Assembly: GCF_015160855.1 (NCBI RefSeq)
Contig: NZ_CP063373.1
Coordinates: forward strand, 9,585,001 to 9,649,000
Length of the DNA: 64,000 nucleotides
Direction: 5' to 3'
From: Streptomyces ferrugineus
GTDB taxonomy: Bacteria > Actinomycetota > Actinomycetes > Streptomycetales > Streptomycetaceae
In this document: positions 957 to 10,485 of the stretch, piece by piece
How the letters are laid out: every line of letters begins with the position of its first letter
Numbering within the stretch: position 1 is the stretch's first letter
The notes under the pieces: model-generated
Told to the model about the DNA's origin: nothing
The model's input: only the letters and a program-made list of their open reading frames with translations
Databases searched by the model: none
Program-made: the position numbers and the translations under genes

Positions 957-1805
957 GTGCTCTTGTCCGCACCCACTCCGGCCGGCGCCGCCCTGACGCC
1001 CCTGGCCCGCCGTTCGGCGGCCGGGCCGCTGCGCATCGGCGTCCTGGTCTCCGCCACCGGCGCCAACCTCACCACGCTGCTGGACCTGCAACGGACACGG
1101 CCCGAGGAGTTCCGGGTCTGCCTCGTCGCCTCGCACGCGGAGCGGGTCAAGGCCCTGGACGTGGCACGGCAGGCCGGGGTCGAGGCGTGGCCGGGCGACT
1201 TCGACCGCGTCTGCGGAACGGCGTCGGCCGCCGTCGGCCGGGCGGGCCGCGAGGCCTACCGGGACCGGGCCCGGCGATGGCACGACGCGCTGGACGGACG
1301 GATCGCCGACTGGGAGCGGGACAACGGCGAGCTGGACCTGATCGTCCTCGCCTACCACCGCTGGATCGACGGCCGGCTGCTCGAACGCTACCGGGGACGC
1401 ATGATCAACCAGCACCCGGCCGATCTGTCGGTCCTTGACGAAGAGGGCCACCGGCGGTTCACGGGCAAGGACCCCGTCCGCCTCGCGATGGCGGCGGGCC
1501 GTGAGACGACCCGCACCTCCTGCTTCCTCGTGGACGGCACCCGGGACGGCGGCGCGATCCTCGCGATGGGGCCGGAGGTGCCCGTCGAGGGACGACGGCC
1601 CACCGCCGAGGACGCCCAGGCGCAGGAGATGAAGCAGAAGAGCCTCAGCGACCGGCCCTGTCTGCGGTGGTCGGTGGAGGCATTCGCGGCGGGGCGGCTC
1701 GCCCTGTCGGACCAGCGACACCGCGACAGCAGCCGGGTCGTGGTGGTGGACGGAGAGCCGACCGAGCTCGGCGGACGGCGACTGACCGGGGAGCCCCTGA
1801 CATGA
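957..1805 (+). CDS. PurN/Fmt-like formyltransferase family protein
   Basis: A Rossmann-type formyltransferase core is visible: IGVLVSATGANLTTLLDL near the N terminus corresponds to the PurN segment that binds the substrate phosphate, and MINQHPADLS followed about 40 residues later by DGTRDGGAIL gives the Asn, His and Asp of the formyl-transfer triad. The family transfers formyl from 10-formyltetrahydrofolate to an amine. About 282 residues is longer than PurN (about 200), with an insert of charged helices between strands. The substrate is unknown; this is not expected to be the housekeeping purN. The start is uncertain: GTG 957 is used, TTG 963 has GGAG five bases upstream, and GTG 933 is possible. 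Its stop overlaps the next gene by ATGA, so it is translationally coupled to the aminotransferase. Confidence 0.75.
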   Translation: MLLSAPTPAGAALTPLARRSAAGPLRIGVLVSATGANLTTLLDLQRTRPEEFRVCLVASHAERVKALDVARQAGVEAWPGDFDRVCGTASAAVGRAGREAYRDRARRWHDALDGRIADWERDNGELDLIVLAYHRWIDGRLLERYRGRMINQHPADLSVLDEEGHRRFTGKDPVRLAMAAGRETTRTSCFLVDGTRDGGAILAMGPEVPVEGRRPTAEDAQAQEMKQKSLSDRPCLRWSVEAFAAGRLALSDQRHRDSSRVVVVDGEPTELGGRRLTGEPLT

Positions 1806-3118
1806 CCGACCTCGCCGACGAGCGAATCCCTTCCTTCGCCGGGGCGGGCAACCTGGTCTACCGCGAACCGGACGTCCCCCGGTTCGTCTCCGGCTCGGGC
1901 AGCTGGCTGACCGCGCACGACGGGCGCCGGTACCTCGACGCGGAGGCCGCCAACGGCACCGTCGCCTTCGGCTACGACGCCACCCTGCTTCAGGAGGCGA
2001 TGCGGCGCTGCGAACAGCTGCCCGCCCTGCCCTCCTTCGCCGAGTCGGAGCTGCGGCTCAAGGTGCTCTCCCGGCTGGAACCGCTCGTGTCCGACGTGCT
2101 GGGCACGCCCGGCCGGGTGGAGCTGGACCTCGGCGGAGCACAGGCCATGGAGACGGCCCTGCGCATCGCCTTCGCCGCGAACGGCCCGGGCACGATCGTC
2201 GTCTTCGAGGGCGCCTTCCACGGCCGCTCCGGCGTGACCAGCATGCTCAGTTCCAGCCCGCGCTACCGGGAGTTGCTCGCCGCGTGGGGGCTGGAGGTGG
2301 TCCGGCTCCCGAGCCCGGACTCGCAGCGGTGCCCGCACGCCGTGGCGGGAGCCGGCTGCGGGCCGGGCTGCCGTGCGGCCGTCACCCGGTGGGGATCCGA
2401 GCTGAGCGGCGTCGGGGGACGAGACTTCGGCCGGAAGGTGTCGGCGTTCGTCTTCGAGTCCGTCCAGAACGTGGGCGGCATGGTGGAACCCGACCACGAA
2501 CTGCTGCGCGCCGCCGTGGATCACGCCCGGGAGCAGGGGGCGGTGGTCATCGCGGACGAGATCTTCACCGGCATGCACCGGGTGGGGCCGCGCTGGGGGT
2601 TCCAGCGCTCCGGGGTGACCCCGGACATCGTCGTCACCAGCAAGGGCCTGGCCAACGGCGGTGCGGCGCTGAGCATGGTGTGGTCCCGCGAGCCGCTCGG
2701 CAGCCCCGAGCGGTACCGGCCCGGCAGCCACTCCTCCACGTACATCGGCATCCCGAGCGCCCTCGCCGTCGTGGACACGGTGCTGGACCGCTGGGAGCGG
2801 TGGAGCACGGTCGACAAGGACGTCCTGCGGCTGGAGGAGGCCATGCGCGACCGGCTCACCGAGGTCGCCGCGCGACATCCGGACCTCGTACGGGACGTGG
2901 ACTCGATGGGCGGCACCGCGCGCATCGTCCTCACCGGACCGCACGCCGGCCGGATGCGGCAGCTGTTCCGGTCCGGGCACCCGGACGCCGGTGTCCTCGT
3001 CGCGACGACCGGTATGGCGCCGGACGTCATCAACGTGCACCCCCCGCTCGTCATCGGGGAACGCGAACTGGACTTCTTCGCGGAGGCCTTCGAGACGGCG
3101 CTGAACGGCATCGCCTGA
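1802..3118 (+). CDS. Class III (glutamate-1-semialdehyde-type) PLP aminotransferase
   Basis: A 438-residue fold-type I PLP enzyme. Visible landmarks are GRRYLDAEAANGTVAFGY near the N terminus, a substrate/PLP segment FEGAFHGRSG, VVIADEIFTG with the Asp that contacts the PLP ring nitrogen, and VVTSKGLANGG with the Schiff-base lysine. The fold and motifs are those of ornithine, 4-aminobutyrate and glutamate-1-semialdehyde aminotransferases or aminomutases. An insert around residues 165-205 carries a His/Cys cluster (CPHAVAGAGCGPGC), which is unusual for the family and could bind a metal. It starts with ATG inside the stop of the formyltransferase and ends in TGATG with the next gene, so the three genes form one operon. 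The natural substrate cannot be read from sequence. Confidence 0.85.
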   Translation: MTDLADERIPSFAGAGNLVYREPDVPRFVSGSGSWLTAHDGRRYLDAEAANGTVAFGYDATLLQEAMRRCEQLPALPSFAESELRLKVLSRLEPLVSDVLGTPGRVELDLGGAQAMETALRIAFAANGPGTIVVFEGAFHGRSGVTSMLSSSPRYRELLAAWGLEVVRLPSPDSQRCPHAVAGAGCGPGCRAAVTRWGSELSGVGGRDFGRKVSAFVFESVQNVGGMVEPDHELLRAAVDHAREQGAVVIADEIFTGMHRVGPRWGFQRSGVTPDIVVTSKGLANGGAALSMVWSREPLGSPERYRPGSHSSTYIGIPSALAVVDTVLDRWERWSTVDKDVLRLEEAMRDRLTEVAARHPDLVRDVDSMGGTARIVLTGPHAGRMRQLFRSGHPDAGVLVATTGMAPDVINVHPPLVIGERELDFFAEAFETALNGIA

Positions 3119-4281
3119 TGGGGGTGGAGACGGAGCGGAAGTTCCTCGTCGGCCGCGGCTGGCGCGAGACGGTGGTGCGGACCCGGGAGGTCCGCCAGGG
3201 GTACATGTCCGCCGAACCCGAGCGCGCGGTGCGGGTGCGGATCACCGACGGCGCCGAGGCGGTCCTCACCGTCAAGGGCCCCCGCGACGGAGCGCGCAGG
3301 GCCGAGTTCGAGTACCCGGTGCCGCTGGCGGACGCCGAGGAGATCCTCGCGCGGCTGTGTCCGCAGCCGCTGGTGCAGAAGAAGCGGCACTATCTGGGCG
3401 GGCGCTTCGACGGCTGGACCGTGGACGAGTTCTACGGCTCCAACGCCGGTCTGGTGCTGGCGGAGCTGGATGCCGAGGACGCGGCGGACGTGGTCGACCT
3501 GCCCGAGTGGGTCACCGAGGAGGTCACCACCGACCCGCGGTACGACAACGCCTCCCTGCACGGCCGTCCGTACCCCACCTGGGCGGCGGGGACGGCACCC
3601 GCGCCGCGACCGCTGCGGGACCCCGCCGACGCGGATCTGGTGATCTTCGACAACGACGGCGTGCTCGTCGACTCCGAGCCGATCGCCAACCGCGTGCTGG
3701 CGGCGCTGCTCACGGAGGCCGGGTTCCCCACCTCGTACGAGGACAGCGTGCGCCGCTACATGGGCGGCACCCTGGACCGCGTCCGGGCCATGCTCAGGGC
3801 CGAGACCGGGCGGGAGCTGCCGACGGGGTTCACCGCACACTACCGGGCCCGGCTGATCGAGGCCTTCGAGCGGGACCTGCGTCCGGTCGCCGGCATGGCG
3901 GAGGTCCTGCGGGCCCTGACCCGGCGCGGCACCCCGTTCTGCGTCGCGTCGAGTTCGCCCCGGGACCGGCTCGCCCTCGGCCTGCGCGTCACAGGGCTGG
4001 CGTCGTTCTTCGAGGGCCGGGTGTACTGCGCGGACGACGTCACCCGGGGCAAGCCGGCGCCGGATCTCTTCCTGCACGCGGCGGTCCGGATGGGAGTCGA
4101 CCGCGCCCACGCGGTGGTGGTCGAGGACAGCGTGCCCGGAGTCGACGCCGCGATGGCCGCGGGCATGACCAGCATCGGCTACGCGGCCCTGACCCCGGCC
4201 GACCGCCTGTCCGCCGCGACCCGCGTGGTGCGGGACACCGCGGGCTTGGCGGTGGAGTTGGGGCTGACGATTCCCGGGTGA
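3118..4281 (+). CDS. CYTH domain fused to HAD-family phosphatase
   Basis: A 387-residue fusion. Residues 1 to about 155 form a CYTH (triphosphate tunnel) domain with the signature ExExK seen as ETERKFLV, then alternating charged beta strands (AVRVRITD, AVLTVKGP, AEFEYPV, QKKRHYL, WTVDEFYG, LVLAELD). Residues about 172-387 form a HAD hydrolase of the phosphoglycolate phosphatase/beta-phosphoglucomutase type: LVIFDNDGVLVDSEP (nucleophile Asp), CVASSSPRDRL (Ser), GKPAPDLFL (Lys) and VVVEDSVPGVDAA (acidic pair). CYTH proteins hydrolyse or transfer triphosphates; HAD proteins remove phosphate. The fusion suggests stepwise dephosphorylation of one metabolite, but that is inference. The start overlaps the aminotransferase stop (TGATG). 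It is the last gene before a strong hairpin. Confidence 0.85.
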   Translation: MGVETERKFLVGRGWRETVVRTREVRQGYMSAEPERAVRVRITDGAEAVLTVKGPRDGARRAEFEYPVPLADAEEILARLCPQPLVQKKRHYLGGRFDGWTVDEFYGSNAGLVLAELDAEDAADVVDLPEWVTEEVTTDPRYDNASLHGRPYPTWAAGTAPAPRPLRDPADADLVIFDNDGVLVDSEPIANRVLAALLTEAGFPTSYEDSVRRYMGGTLDRVRAMLRAETGRELPTGFTAHYRARLIEAFERDLRPVAGMAEVLRALTRRGTPFCVASSSPRDRLALGLRVTGLASFFEGRVYCADDVTRGKPAPDLFLHAAVRMGVDRAHAVVVEDSVPGVDAAMAAGMTSIGYAALTPADRLSAATRVVRDTAGLAVELGLTIPG

Positions 4282-4313
4282 GGATCCCGACTCGGCCCGG
4301 GGACGGCCGCGCG

Positions 4314-4349
4314 AAAGAACCCAGGTCAAAGCCTTGACCTGGGTTCTTT
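4314..4349. terminator. Strong bidirectional hairpin terminator
   Basis: A perfect 16-base inverted repeat (arms 4314-4329 and 4334-4349, loop AGCC) with A-rich and T-rich outer edges. It follows the formyltransferase operon on the plus strand. On the minus strand it sits just beyond the tRNA-Thr remnant, so it was probably the original terminator of that tRNA gene. Confidence 0.85.
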
Positions 4350-4353
4350 ATGG

Positions 4354-4395
4354 AGCCGCCTTCGGGATTCGAACCCGAGACCTGCGCATGACGAG
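4354..4395 (-). other. attL-like copy of the 3' half of tRNA-Thr
   Basis: These 42 bases match 10412-10453 of the intact tRNA-Thr gene with two mismatches (CCTGCGCATGACGAG against CCTACGCATTACGAG). The match runs from the 3' end of the tRNA through the T arm to the anticodon loop and stops there. This is the extent typical of attachment sites used by tRNA-targeting tyrosine integrases. The 5' half of a tRNA is absent beyond 4395, so this is not a functional tRNA. Confidence 0.8.
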
Positions 4396-4546
4396 GCCGG
4401 TAGGAGTTGCGCACCCCCGCCCTCTAGCGGAGCGGCTTCCGGCCAGGGGCTGAATGAACCTTGACAGAACCCGAAGAGCGGCGAACGACAGGTGTCTAGC
4501 CTGGCCAAGCGCCAGACCGACGTCCGACTCCTGGAAAGGTGACCCG

Positions 4547-5188
4547 TTGGATTCCATCACCGTCATCCCCGGCGACGGCATCGGTCCCGAGGTCGTCGAA
4601 TGCGCGCTTCAAGTCGTGGACACGCTGGGCATCGGGCTGTCCGTCGATGTCCTCGACCACGTCGGCGCGGACAGGTACCGCCGCGACGGCGTGGCGCTGA
4701 GCGAGGCCGACCTGGCCCGCGTGTCCGCGAGTTCCGCCGTCCTGCTGGGGGCCATCGGACAGCCCGACCTGGAGGACACCGAATATGTGCGCGGTGTTCT
4801 GCTGCCTCTGCGGCACAGCTTCGACCTGTACGCCAACTGCCGACCGGTCCGGCTGTGGCACGACCGGCTCAGCCCGCTGAGGGACCCTGAGCGCCGCATG
4901 CTCGACTGCGTGATCGTCCGTGAGAACACCGAGGGGCTCTACAGCGGCATCGGCGGGAACCTCCGTACGTCCACGCCCCAGGAGGTGGCCATCGACGCCG
5001 ACGTCAACACCTGGCACGGCGTCGCCCGGATCATGGACTTCGCGTTCTCCACGGCCCGCCACGAGGTGTGCCTCGTGGACAAGGCCAACGCGGTCCGGGC
5101 AGGCGGACGGCTGTGGCAGGAGTGCTGGCGCAGGACCGCTGAGCGCCCCCGAGGCCAGGCCTCGGGGCACCCGTATGTGGATCACTGA
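4547..5188 (+). pseudogene. Truncated isocitrate/isopropylmalate dehydrogenase family gene
   Basis: The N-terminal 195 residues are clearly of the beta-decarboxylating dehydrogenase family: ITVIPGDGIGPEVV at the start, LLGAIGQPD, LRHSFDLYANCRPVR, DCVIVRENTEGLYSG with the conserved substrate loop, and VCLVDKANAVRAGGRLW, where the family has HKANV and the catalytic lysine. After that segment the family normally continues for about 150 more residues with the catalytic Asp residues and NAD-binding region; here the frame ends after an unrelated 17-residue tail. Translation probably starts at TTG 4547, which has GGAAAGGTGA eight bases upstream. The protein is therefore truncated and very likely inactive. 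The 3' end overlaps the convergent MFS gene by 7 bases, so the break may be the deletion point that joined them. Confidence 0.8.
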
Positions 5189-10404: not shown

Positions 10405-10411
10405 CAGGTAG

Positions 10412-10485
10412 AGCCGCCTTCGGGATTCGAACCCGAGACCTACGCATTACGAGTGCGTTGCTCTGGCCATCTGAGCTAAGGCGGC
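10412..10485 (-). tRNA. tRNA-Thr (anticodon CGU)
   Basis: The complement folds as a complete 74-base tRNA: acceptor stem GCCGCCT with AGGCGGC, D arm with AGCTCAGATGGCCAGAGC, anticodon stem ACGCA/TGCGT around CTCGTAA (anticodon CGU, threonine), and T arm TCGGGTTCGAATCCCGA. CCA is not encoded. Its 3' half is the probable attachment site of the island to its left. Confidence 0.96.

Follow-up and report, generated by a model that had tools for sequence, protein, structure and literature searches.

The stretch of Streptomyces ferrugineus DNA analyzed here (64,000 nucleotides, NZ_CP063373.1 positions 9,585,001 to 9,649,000; hereafter the window) carries at its left end three overlapping genes coding for a formyltransferase (FT), a class III pyridoxal phosphate (PLP) enzyme (AT), and a protein in which a CYTH and a HAD domain are fused, with a LysE-type exporter gene transcribed divergently (Table 1). 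FT and AT are members of a module conserved in several bacterial phyla. The FT gene has a GTG start (a TTG at 965 is a possible alternative) and shares 4 bases with the AT gene (ATGA), which in turn shares a single base with the fusion gene (TGATG). These stop/start overlaps were described in a first-pass annotation, together with a PurN-like formyltransferase with an Asn-His-Asp triad, a class III aminotransferase-fold enzyme with a Schiff-base Lys, a CYTH-HAD fusion, and a divergent LysE exporter, and all of these assignments hold. The same annotation presented a three-gene operon, but this understates the extent of the system, as the window begins inside a cluster of ~30 kb. The LysE gene starts at about 585 and is cut by the window's left edge, past which it extends 57 bases (L059:17944-18585), and the hairpin that follows the fusion gene is likely the terminator of the FT-AT-CYTH-HAD operon.

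Table 1. Features at the left end of the window
Feature	Start	End	Strand	Evidence
LysE-type exporter, 5' part	1	585	-	PF01810, 103 bits (cut-off 25.6)
Divergent intergenic region between the LysE and FT operons	586	956		Gene positions
Formyltransferase FT, PurN fold	957	1805	+	PF00551; N151, H153, and D197 invariant
Class III PLP enzyme AT	1802	3118	+	PF00202; K281 invariant; other residues at the switch-Glu and flipping-Arg positions
CYTH-HAD fusion protein	3118	4281	+	
CYTH domain of fusion protein	3118	3582	+	PF01928; EXEXK, Y29, K53
HAD-IA domain of fusion protein	3613	4281	+	PF00702; motif I DND
Perfect 16-bp inverted repeat	4314	4349	+	Sequence; fold of 4305-4355, z -4.37

A pattern scan matched 80 stretches, among which 21 loci were confirmed and their gene content determined by tblastn. 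AT is present in 19 of the 21 (missing in L054, where FT is partial, and in L055), an NDK (nucleoside diphosphate kinase)-like gene in 18 (L041 and L054 partial), a NagA-like gene in 16 (missing in L038-L040, L042, and L054), and each of two cupin genes in 13. HAD matches are found in 18 loci, with those in L045 and L051 being 32% identical, kilobases distant, and perhaps unrelated. AT directly follows FT at six of the loci, the order is FT-NDK-AT at ten, and AT precedes FT at three; L107 is a second proteobacterial run with NagA, NDK, AT, and FT genes in a row, and one protein (P0153) is an NDK-AT fusion. The unit is spread among Actinomycetota, Pseudomonadota, and metagenome-assembled genomes (MAGs) of Bacteroidota and cyanobacteria. 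The conserved module comprises FT, AT, NDK-like, and NagA-like proteins, usually with the cupin pair and a HAD protein and sometimes with a CYTH protein. The cupin pair is also in the genomes of L038-L040, and in the window's own genome it lies ~20 kb from FT. The three window genes do not themselves form the conserved unit; a fused CYTH-HAD gene follows AT at four of the 21 loci plus the window locus, all near relatives, and the usual partners are the NDK-like and NagA-like genes. LysE is 97 to 98% identical in the two nearest loci and 68 to 70% in L040-L042, and it is tied to a near subgroup (L038-L042) and L045 (61 to 98% overall), with a single 35% match in L046, and not to the core in general.

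Among Streptomycetaceae, FT (E<1e-100) is present in 7 of 394 genomes, with 360 others having matches at E 9e-10 or worse that were taken as PurN-type without test. AT (E<1e-60) is in 7 of 388 genomes, and these are the same seven; the chance of identical seven-genome sets is 4e-15, relatedness ignored. The NagA-like family (E<1e-20) is found in 13 of the 388, all seven included, one of the 13 being a short match. In 26 chosen genomes, 13 with and 13 without the NagA-like family, the NDK-like protein is present in nine (the seven, G114, and G048) and the cupin family (E<1e-50) in eight (a pair in each of the seven and one copy in G114), with two more weak matches; these genomes overlap the 21 loci and the counts are not additive. 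A stretch of G114 (L102) has NagA-like, two NDK-like, cupin, and HAD genes and a CYTH-like open reading frame (ORF), named by its EIERK motif, but is without FT and AT; gene calling overlooked both of its NDK-like genes. In a G048 stretch (L103), the NDK-like profile matches, but gene calls and blastp found none of the core genes. A set confined to one strain, a possibility the first-pass annotation had raised, is rejected by the FT-AT pair in other genomes and phyla, and a chance FT-AT neighborhood is rejected by the identical seven-genome sets. The finding is real, non-random, and broader than first reported.

FT falls in the formyltransferase superfamily, with 39 bits against PF00551 (Formyl_trans_N, cut-off 26.1) and N151, H153, and D197 invariant in alignments of 19 and 13 rows, but its 54 bits against the PurN equivalog TIGR00639 are below the cut-off of 150.1. 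It is the weakest of seven Formyl_trans_N matches in the genome; the other six include a PurN (224 bits), an Fmt (225 bits), and two PurU proteins, all over their NCBIfam cut-offs, and two that are below these cut-offs in the ORFs taken. A role as housekeeping PurN or Fmt, with FT as the sole such gene of the genome, had been considered and is rejected, as PurN and Fmt are separately encoded elsewhere. FT shares with PurN, the glycinamide ribonucleotide (GAR) transformylase, its fold family, the catalytic Asn/His/Asp, and an S..G.N loop, and all 13 solved structures matching it at E<0.05 are GAR transformylases. FT differs from PurN in being longer and in having its own conserved C-terminal QK..SD motif, and a wide gap in scores, as distinct from a tree, parts the FT family from the other formyltransferases listed. 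A tblastn search of plasmids with FT gave a single PurN-like match, at 25.5%.

AT has the class III fold (PF00202, 175 bits; cut-off 30.5), and the Schiff-base K281 is present in 28 of 28 rows; R21, R85, and R154 are invariant as well. Typical 2-oxoglutarate-dependent class III transaminases have a switch Glu and a flipping Arg, with roles as in γ-aminobutyrate (GABA) aminotransferase (GABA-AT), and neither is present in any of the 28 rows; the first position is Val or Ala, and the second is Asn, Ile, Ala, Met, Cys, Val, or Ser. AT differs at both positions from known class III PLP enzymes (GABA-AT, ArgD, amino-acid racemases, and ethanolamine-phosphate phospho-lyase), and the 25 best of its 69 NCBIfam matches are all under their cut-offs. 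These residues suggest that AT may not be an ordinary transaminase, though many control enzymes are without them too; when 22 further class III enzymes from the genome were automatically aligned as a control, 13 had Arg or Lys at the flipping position. VIA-align did not separate racemase from transaminase for AT among the families listed. A plasmid tblastn search with a Roseomonas AT returned 1,743 records, every one below 60% identity. We note an AT-related class III PLP group in Pseudomonadota (L108-L117), with motifs such as FNVGGSQSIED and Thr at the flipping-Arg position.

Both parts of the fusion protein exceed their Pfam cut-offs, the CYTH (triphosphate tunnel) domain with 37.4 bits against PF01928 (cut-off 23.2) and the HAD domain with 100 bits against PF00702 (cut-off 26.4). 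EXEXK is present in seven of seven aligned CYTH domains, and Y29 and K53 align with the Nitrosomonas europaea CYTH chain 2fbl (NE1496; match E 7e-11), which we take to be NeuTTM, the name of the chain not being found in the two papers checked. The Tyr/Lys pair is the dyad of the inorganic triphosphatase NeuTTM, according to the parts of PMC3440374 consulted. By alignment, the CYTH domain keeps this predicted dyad as well as EXEXK, and it is unlike NeuTTM in being fused to a HAD domain.

The NDK-like protein keeps K73 and H190, and its match to a solved NDK has an E-value of 3e-10. The NagA-like protein keeps HxHG, EGP, and other His/Asp residues, with a weak match to NagA (1.9e-5). The cupin fold is that of an AlphaFold2 model (mean predicted confidence, pLDDT, 94), for which thiol-dioxygenase cupins are nearest (TM score 0.38 to 0.46); mercaptosuccinate dioxygenase ranks first, followed mostly by thiol dioxygenases, and D-lyxose isomerase is also matched. 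The cupin family profile found nothing in the PDB below E 0.8, and the two cupins scanned have no Pfam match. As the members scanned lack Pfam matches, the NagA-like name rests on residues and a weak profile match, and the cupin name on the model. On plasmids of Alkalihalophilus, Rhodococcus, and S. xanthii, the genes surrounding NagA-like homologues did not decide its substrate, and the NBC_01591 stretch carries no annotation. The Streptomyces xanthii plasmid homologue (L100) is 68% identical and belongs to another cluster, which also encodes ATP-grasp proteins, methylaspartate mutase, and aspartate kinase.

The genes at 957-4281 form the right-hand operon of a specialized-metabolite cluster of ~30 kb, from approximately 9,559,488 to 9,589,281 on the chromosome, the outer limits being judged from homologue content with part of the ORFs scanned. 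Its left part codes for a major facilitator superfamily (MFS) transporter, a LuxR-type regulator, the NDK-like protein, two cupin-like proteins, the NagA-like protein, and AsnB, and it continues with nucleotidyltransferase-like (so called after its homologue in L045, which matches NTP_transf_2 at 21.3 bits, cut-off 21), PqqD-like, AurF-type (the second of two in the cluster), ATP-grasp, PIG-L, and MFS proteins. These are followed by a VioD-like PLP enzyme, DapF, a Haem_oxygenas_2 protein, a 2-oxoglutarate-Fe dioxygenase, SbnB, and SbnA, and then by a protein like ornithine carbamoyltransferase (OTC), AurF1, LysE, and FT-AT-CYTH/HAD; the operon to the left of the divergent intergenic region is LysE, AurF1, OTC-like, SbnA, and SbnB. 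SbnA (404.9 bits, cut-off 349.95) and SbnB (405.5, cut-off 326.9) both exceed their NCBIfam equivalog cut-offs, as do AsnB and DapF theirs, the AurF (PF11583) and OTC domains are over the Pfam cut-offs, and the VioD-like enzyme is below its cut-off. In the second AurF-type protein (L059:4248-5330, with counterparts in L043, L045, and L047-L050), a conserved N-terminus with the pattern MCGxVGxFxGCSAxxxCPKxAL precedes a variable linker, the L045 copy being read solely in the upstream translation; in this genome the protein has AsnB and a PqqD-like protein as neighbors, and it may be a peptide-like carrier.

To the right of the operon hairpin, the 3' half of a tRNA-Thr(CGT) gene (10411-10485) is repeated at 4352-4383, the other copy being at 10410-10441, and its 28-base core has just these two matches in the genome at ≤2 mismatches. 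The ~6 kb between them, beginning right after the hairpin, may be an old integration. A short isocitrate/isopropylmalate dehydrogenase-like ORF at 4454-5188 covers profile positions 2-206 of 348 and is probably truncated.

Our preferred reading, held tentatively and at somewhat less than even confidence, is that the module would make a formylated amine via phosphorylated intermediates. From the gene content, the co-conservation, the conserved catalytic residues, and the NDK-AT fusion, all of which are directly observed, we infer a substrate type and an order of steps. The NDK-like protein would raise a phospho-intermediate to the di- or triphosphate, and AT would hold the amine as an aldimine, in chemistry that need not be transamination and could be elimination or replacement of a phosphate group. 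FT would formylate the amine from 10-formyl-tetrahydrofolate, the cupins would oxidize, the NagA-like enzyme would cleave an N-acyl group, CYTH-HAD would strip tri- and monophosphate from an intermediate or from released tripolyphosphate (PPPi), and LysE would export the product. Phospho-intermediate chemistry is favored because three enzymes of phosphate type (NDK-like, CYTH, and HAD) are repeatedly found near a PLP enzyme and a PurN-type FT, and also because L048 encodes a thymidylate-kinase-like protein; the phosphate chemistry suggested earlier is likewise plausible given the NDK-like partner, the triphosphatase dyad of CYTH, and the PurN-type loop of FT. A specific and rather improbable version has inorganic tripolyphosphate as a PLP leaving group, in which the NDK-like protein would form an aminoalkyl triphosphate, AT would eliminate or replace PPPi, and CYTH-HAD would destroy PPPi and pyrophosphate. 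In this strain the module is linked to genes that would provide L-2,3-diaminopropionate, carbamoyl transfer, and diiron N-oxygenation, and a metabolite that resembles an amino acid or is a small peptide, and that bears formyl, carbamoyl, and N-O groups, is therefore the probable end product. The diaminopropionate, carbamoyl, and AurF-type oxygenase genes together with an amino-acid exporter suggest an antimetabolite-like product.

Several observations weigh against a formylated amine made through phosphorylated intermediates. The strongest caution is that CYTH is present in just 5 of the 21 loci, which does not establish a triphosphate step as a general feature. The second motif-I Asp of HAD is Ser (DNS, not DND) in seven loci (L044, L046-L050, and L053), where it may thus not be a phosphatase. 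L055 is without AT, its contig beginning beside FT, and 6 of the 13 genomes with the NagA-like family lack FT. No match to the cupin family (E<0.001) was obtained in the Roseomonas, Nostocales MAG, or Cellulomonas genomes. The Mantel correlations (r 0.91-0.97, 15 loci) are not corrected for vertical descent, and the OTC-like protein scores 223 against an NCBIfam ornithine carbamoyltransferase cut-off of 281. As for AT, 9 of the 22 control enzymes are without Arg or Lys at the flipping position (five Gln, one His, one Tyr, and two gaps) and the switch Glu is in only 9 of them by the same automatic alignment, so the missing residues do not exclude transamination, and an AT model matches racemases and GABA transaminases equally well.

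Other explanations account for parts of these data. The module could act on an amino sugar with a glucosamine-6-phosphate-type start, with AT transaminating, FT N-formylating, the cupins isomerizing, the NagA-like enzyme deacylating, and HAD dephosphorylating. A GlmS-like gene (identity from sequence, no family scan) beside the core in L051 and L058, the weak match of the NagA-like profile to N-acetylglucosamine-6-phosphate deacetylases, a GFO/IDH/MocA oxidoreductase near the core in L044 and L050, and the D-lyxose isomerase match of the cupin model are consistent with this, but GlmS-like genes are in 2 of the 21 loci, the cupin model has a mercaptosuccinate dioxygenase in first place and mostly thiol dioxygenases behind it, and AT is of class III, whereas amino-sugar transaminases are usually of the DegT type; we consider an amino sugar unlikely. 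Alternatively, formyl could be a protecting group like the acetyl of arginine synthesis, with FT formylating an amine, the NDK-like protein activating a carboxylate, AT transaminating the semialdehyde, and the NagA-like enzyme deformylating. FT and the NagA-like amidohydrolase co-occur, and the best NCBIfam matches of AT, all below cut-off, include acetylornithine transaminases. Nevertheless, this is distinctly unlikely, with the flipping Arg missing in AT, no semialdehyde dehydrogenase seen as a constant neighbor among the part of the ORFs scanned, and those six genomes with the NagA-like family but not FT. That the three genes share no pathway and are together by chance or drift has almost no credence; it fits CYTH-HAD beside AT in near relatives only, but for FT-AT it is strongly disfavored by the identical seven-genome sets, the cross-phylum adjacency, and the NDK-AT fusion.

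It is also conceivable, at a very low probability, that the product of the cluster is related to 4-formylaminooxyvinylglycine (FVG). The gvg cluster, as described in the parts of PMC8067088 consulted, has a formyltransferase (gvgI) adjoining a class III aminotransferase (gvgH), LysE exporters, a carbamoyltransferase, and a heme-oxygenase-like protein, and functional counterparts are present here, including the Haem_oxygenas_2 protein. However, the carbamoyltransferase found among the scanned ORFs of the 30 kb is OTC-like, not of the NodU type of gvgF, and membership in the FVG cluster family is not adopted. No gvgA-type esterase was seen among the part of the ORFs scanned. For FT, 120 of 139 homologues were listed, and for AT 120 of 662; many of those listed are unnamed, and none carries a Pseudomonas name.

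The formylated amine made through phosphorylated intermediates remains the reading we prefer, and the module could open the way to a small molecule of a new kind. The literature searched, with few subscription journals, has no description of this gene combination, in line with the first-pass annotation, nor is the module described in the consulted parts of PMC11479980 and PMC9248904. An enzyme set that co-occurs across phyla in this way is a marker for related unknown metabolites. A PurN-fold FT, a class III PLP enzyme without the carboxylate switch, and NDK-like, NagA-like, and cupin proteins are families not seen paired in that literature, and their pairing makes specific chemistry testable; the tripolyphosphate leaving-group route, if true, would be a biosynthetic logic not found there.

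Two described systems are useful for comparison. Both proteins of the SbnA/SbnB L-2,3-diaminopropionate pathway are present, but here they would be a supply branch inside a larger cluster. The nearest described system is gvg of Pseudomonas fluorescens WH6, which the cluster resembles, without a claim of membership. Gvg-like clusters, including those in Streptomyces, have the core genes gvgA, gvgB, gvgC, and gvgF according to the consulted parts of PMC8064604, and these differ from the genes here. Compared by description in the parts of these sources consulted, and not by sequence, the cluster and gvg share a formyltransferase, a class III aminotransferase, LysE, carbamoyl transfer, and presumed N-O chemistry, whereas SbnA/SbnB, the NDK-like and NagA-like proteins, the cupins, and a carbamoyltransferase of another family set the S. 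ferrugineus cluster apart.

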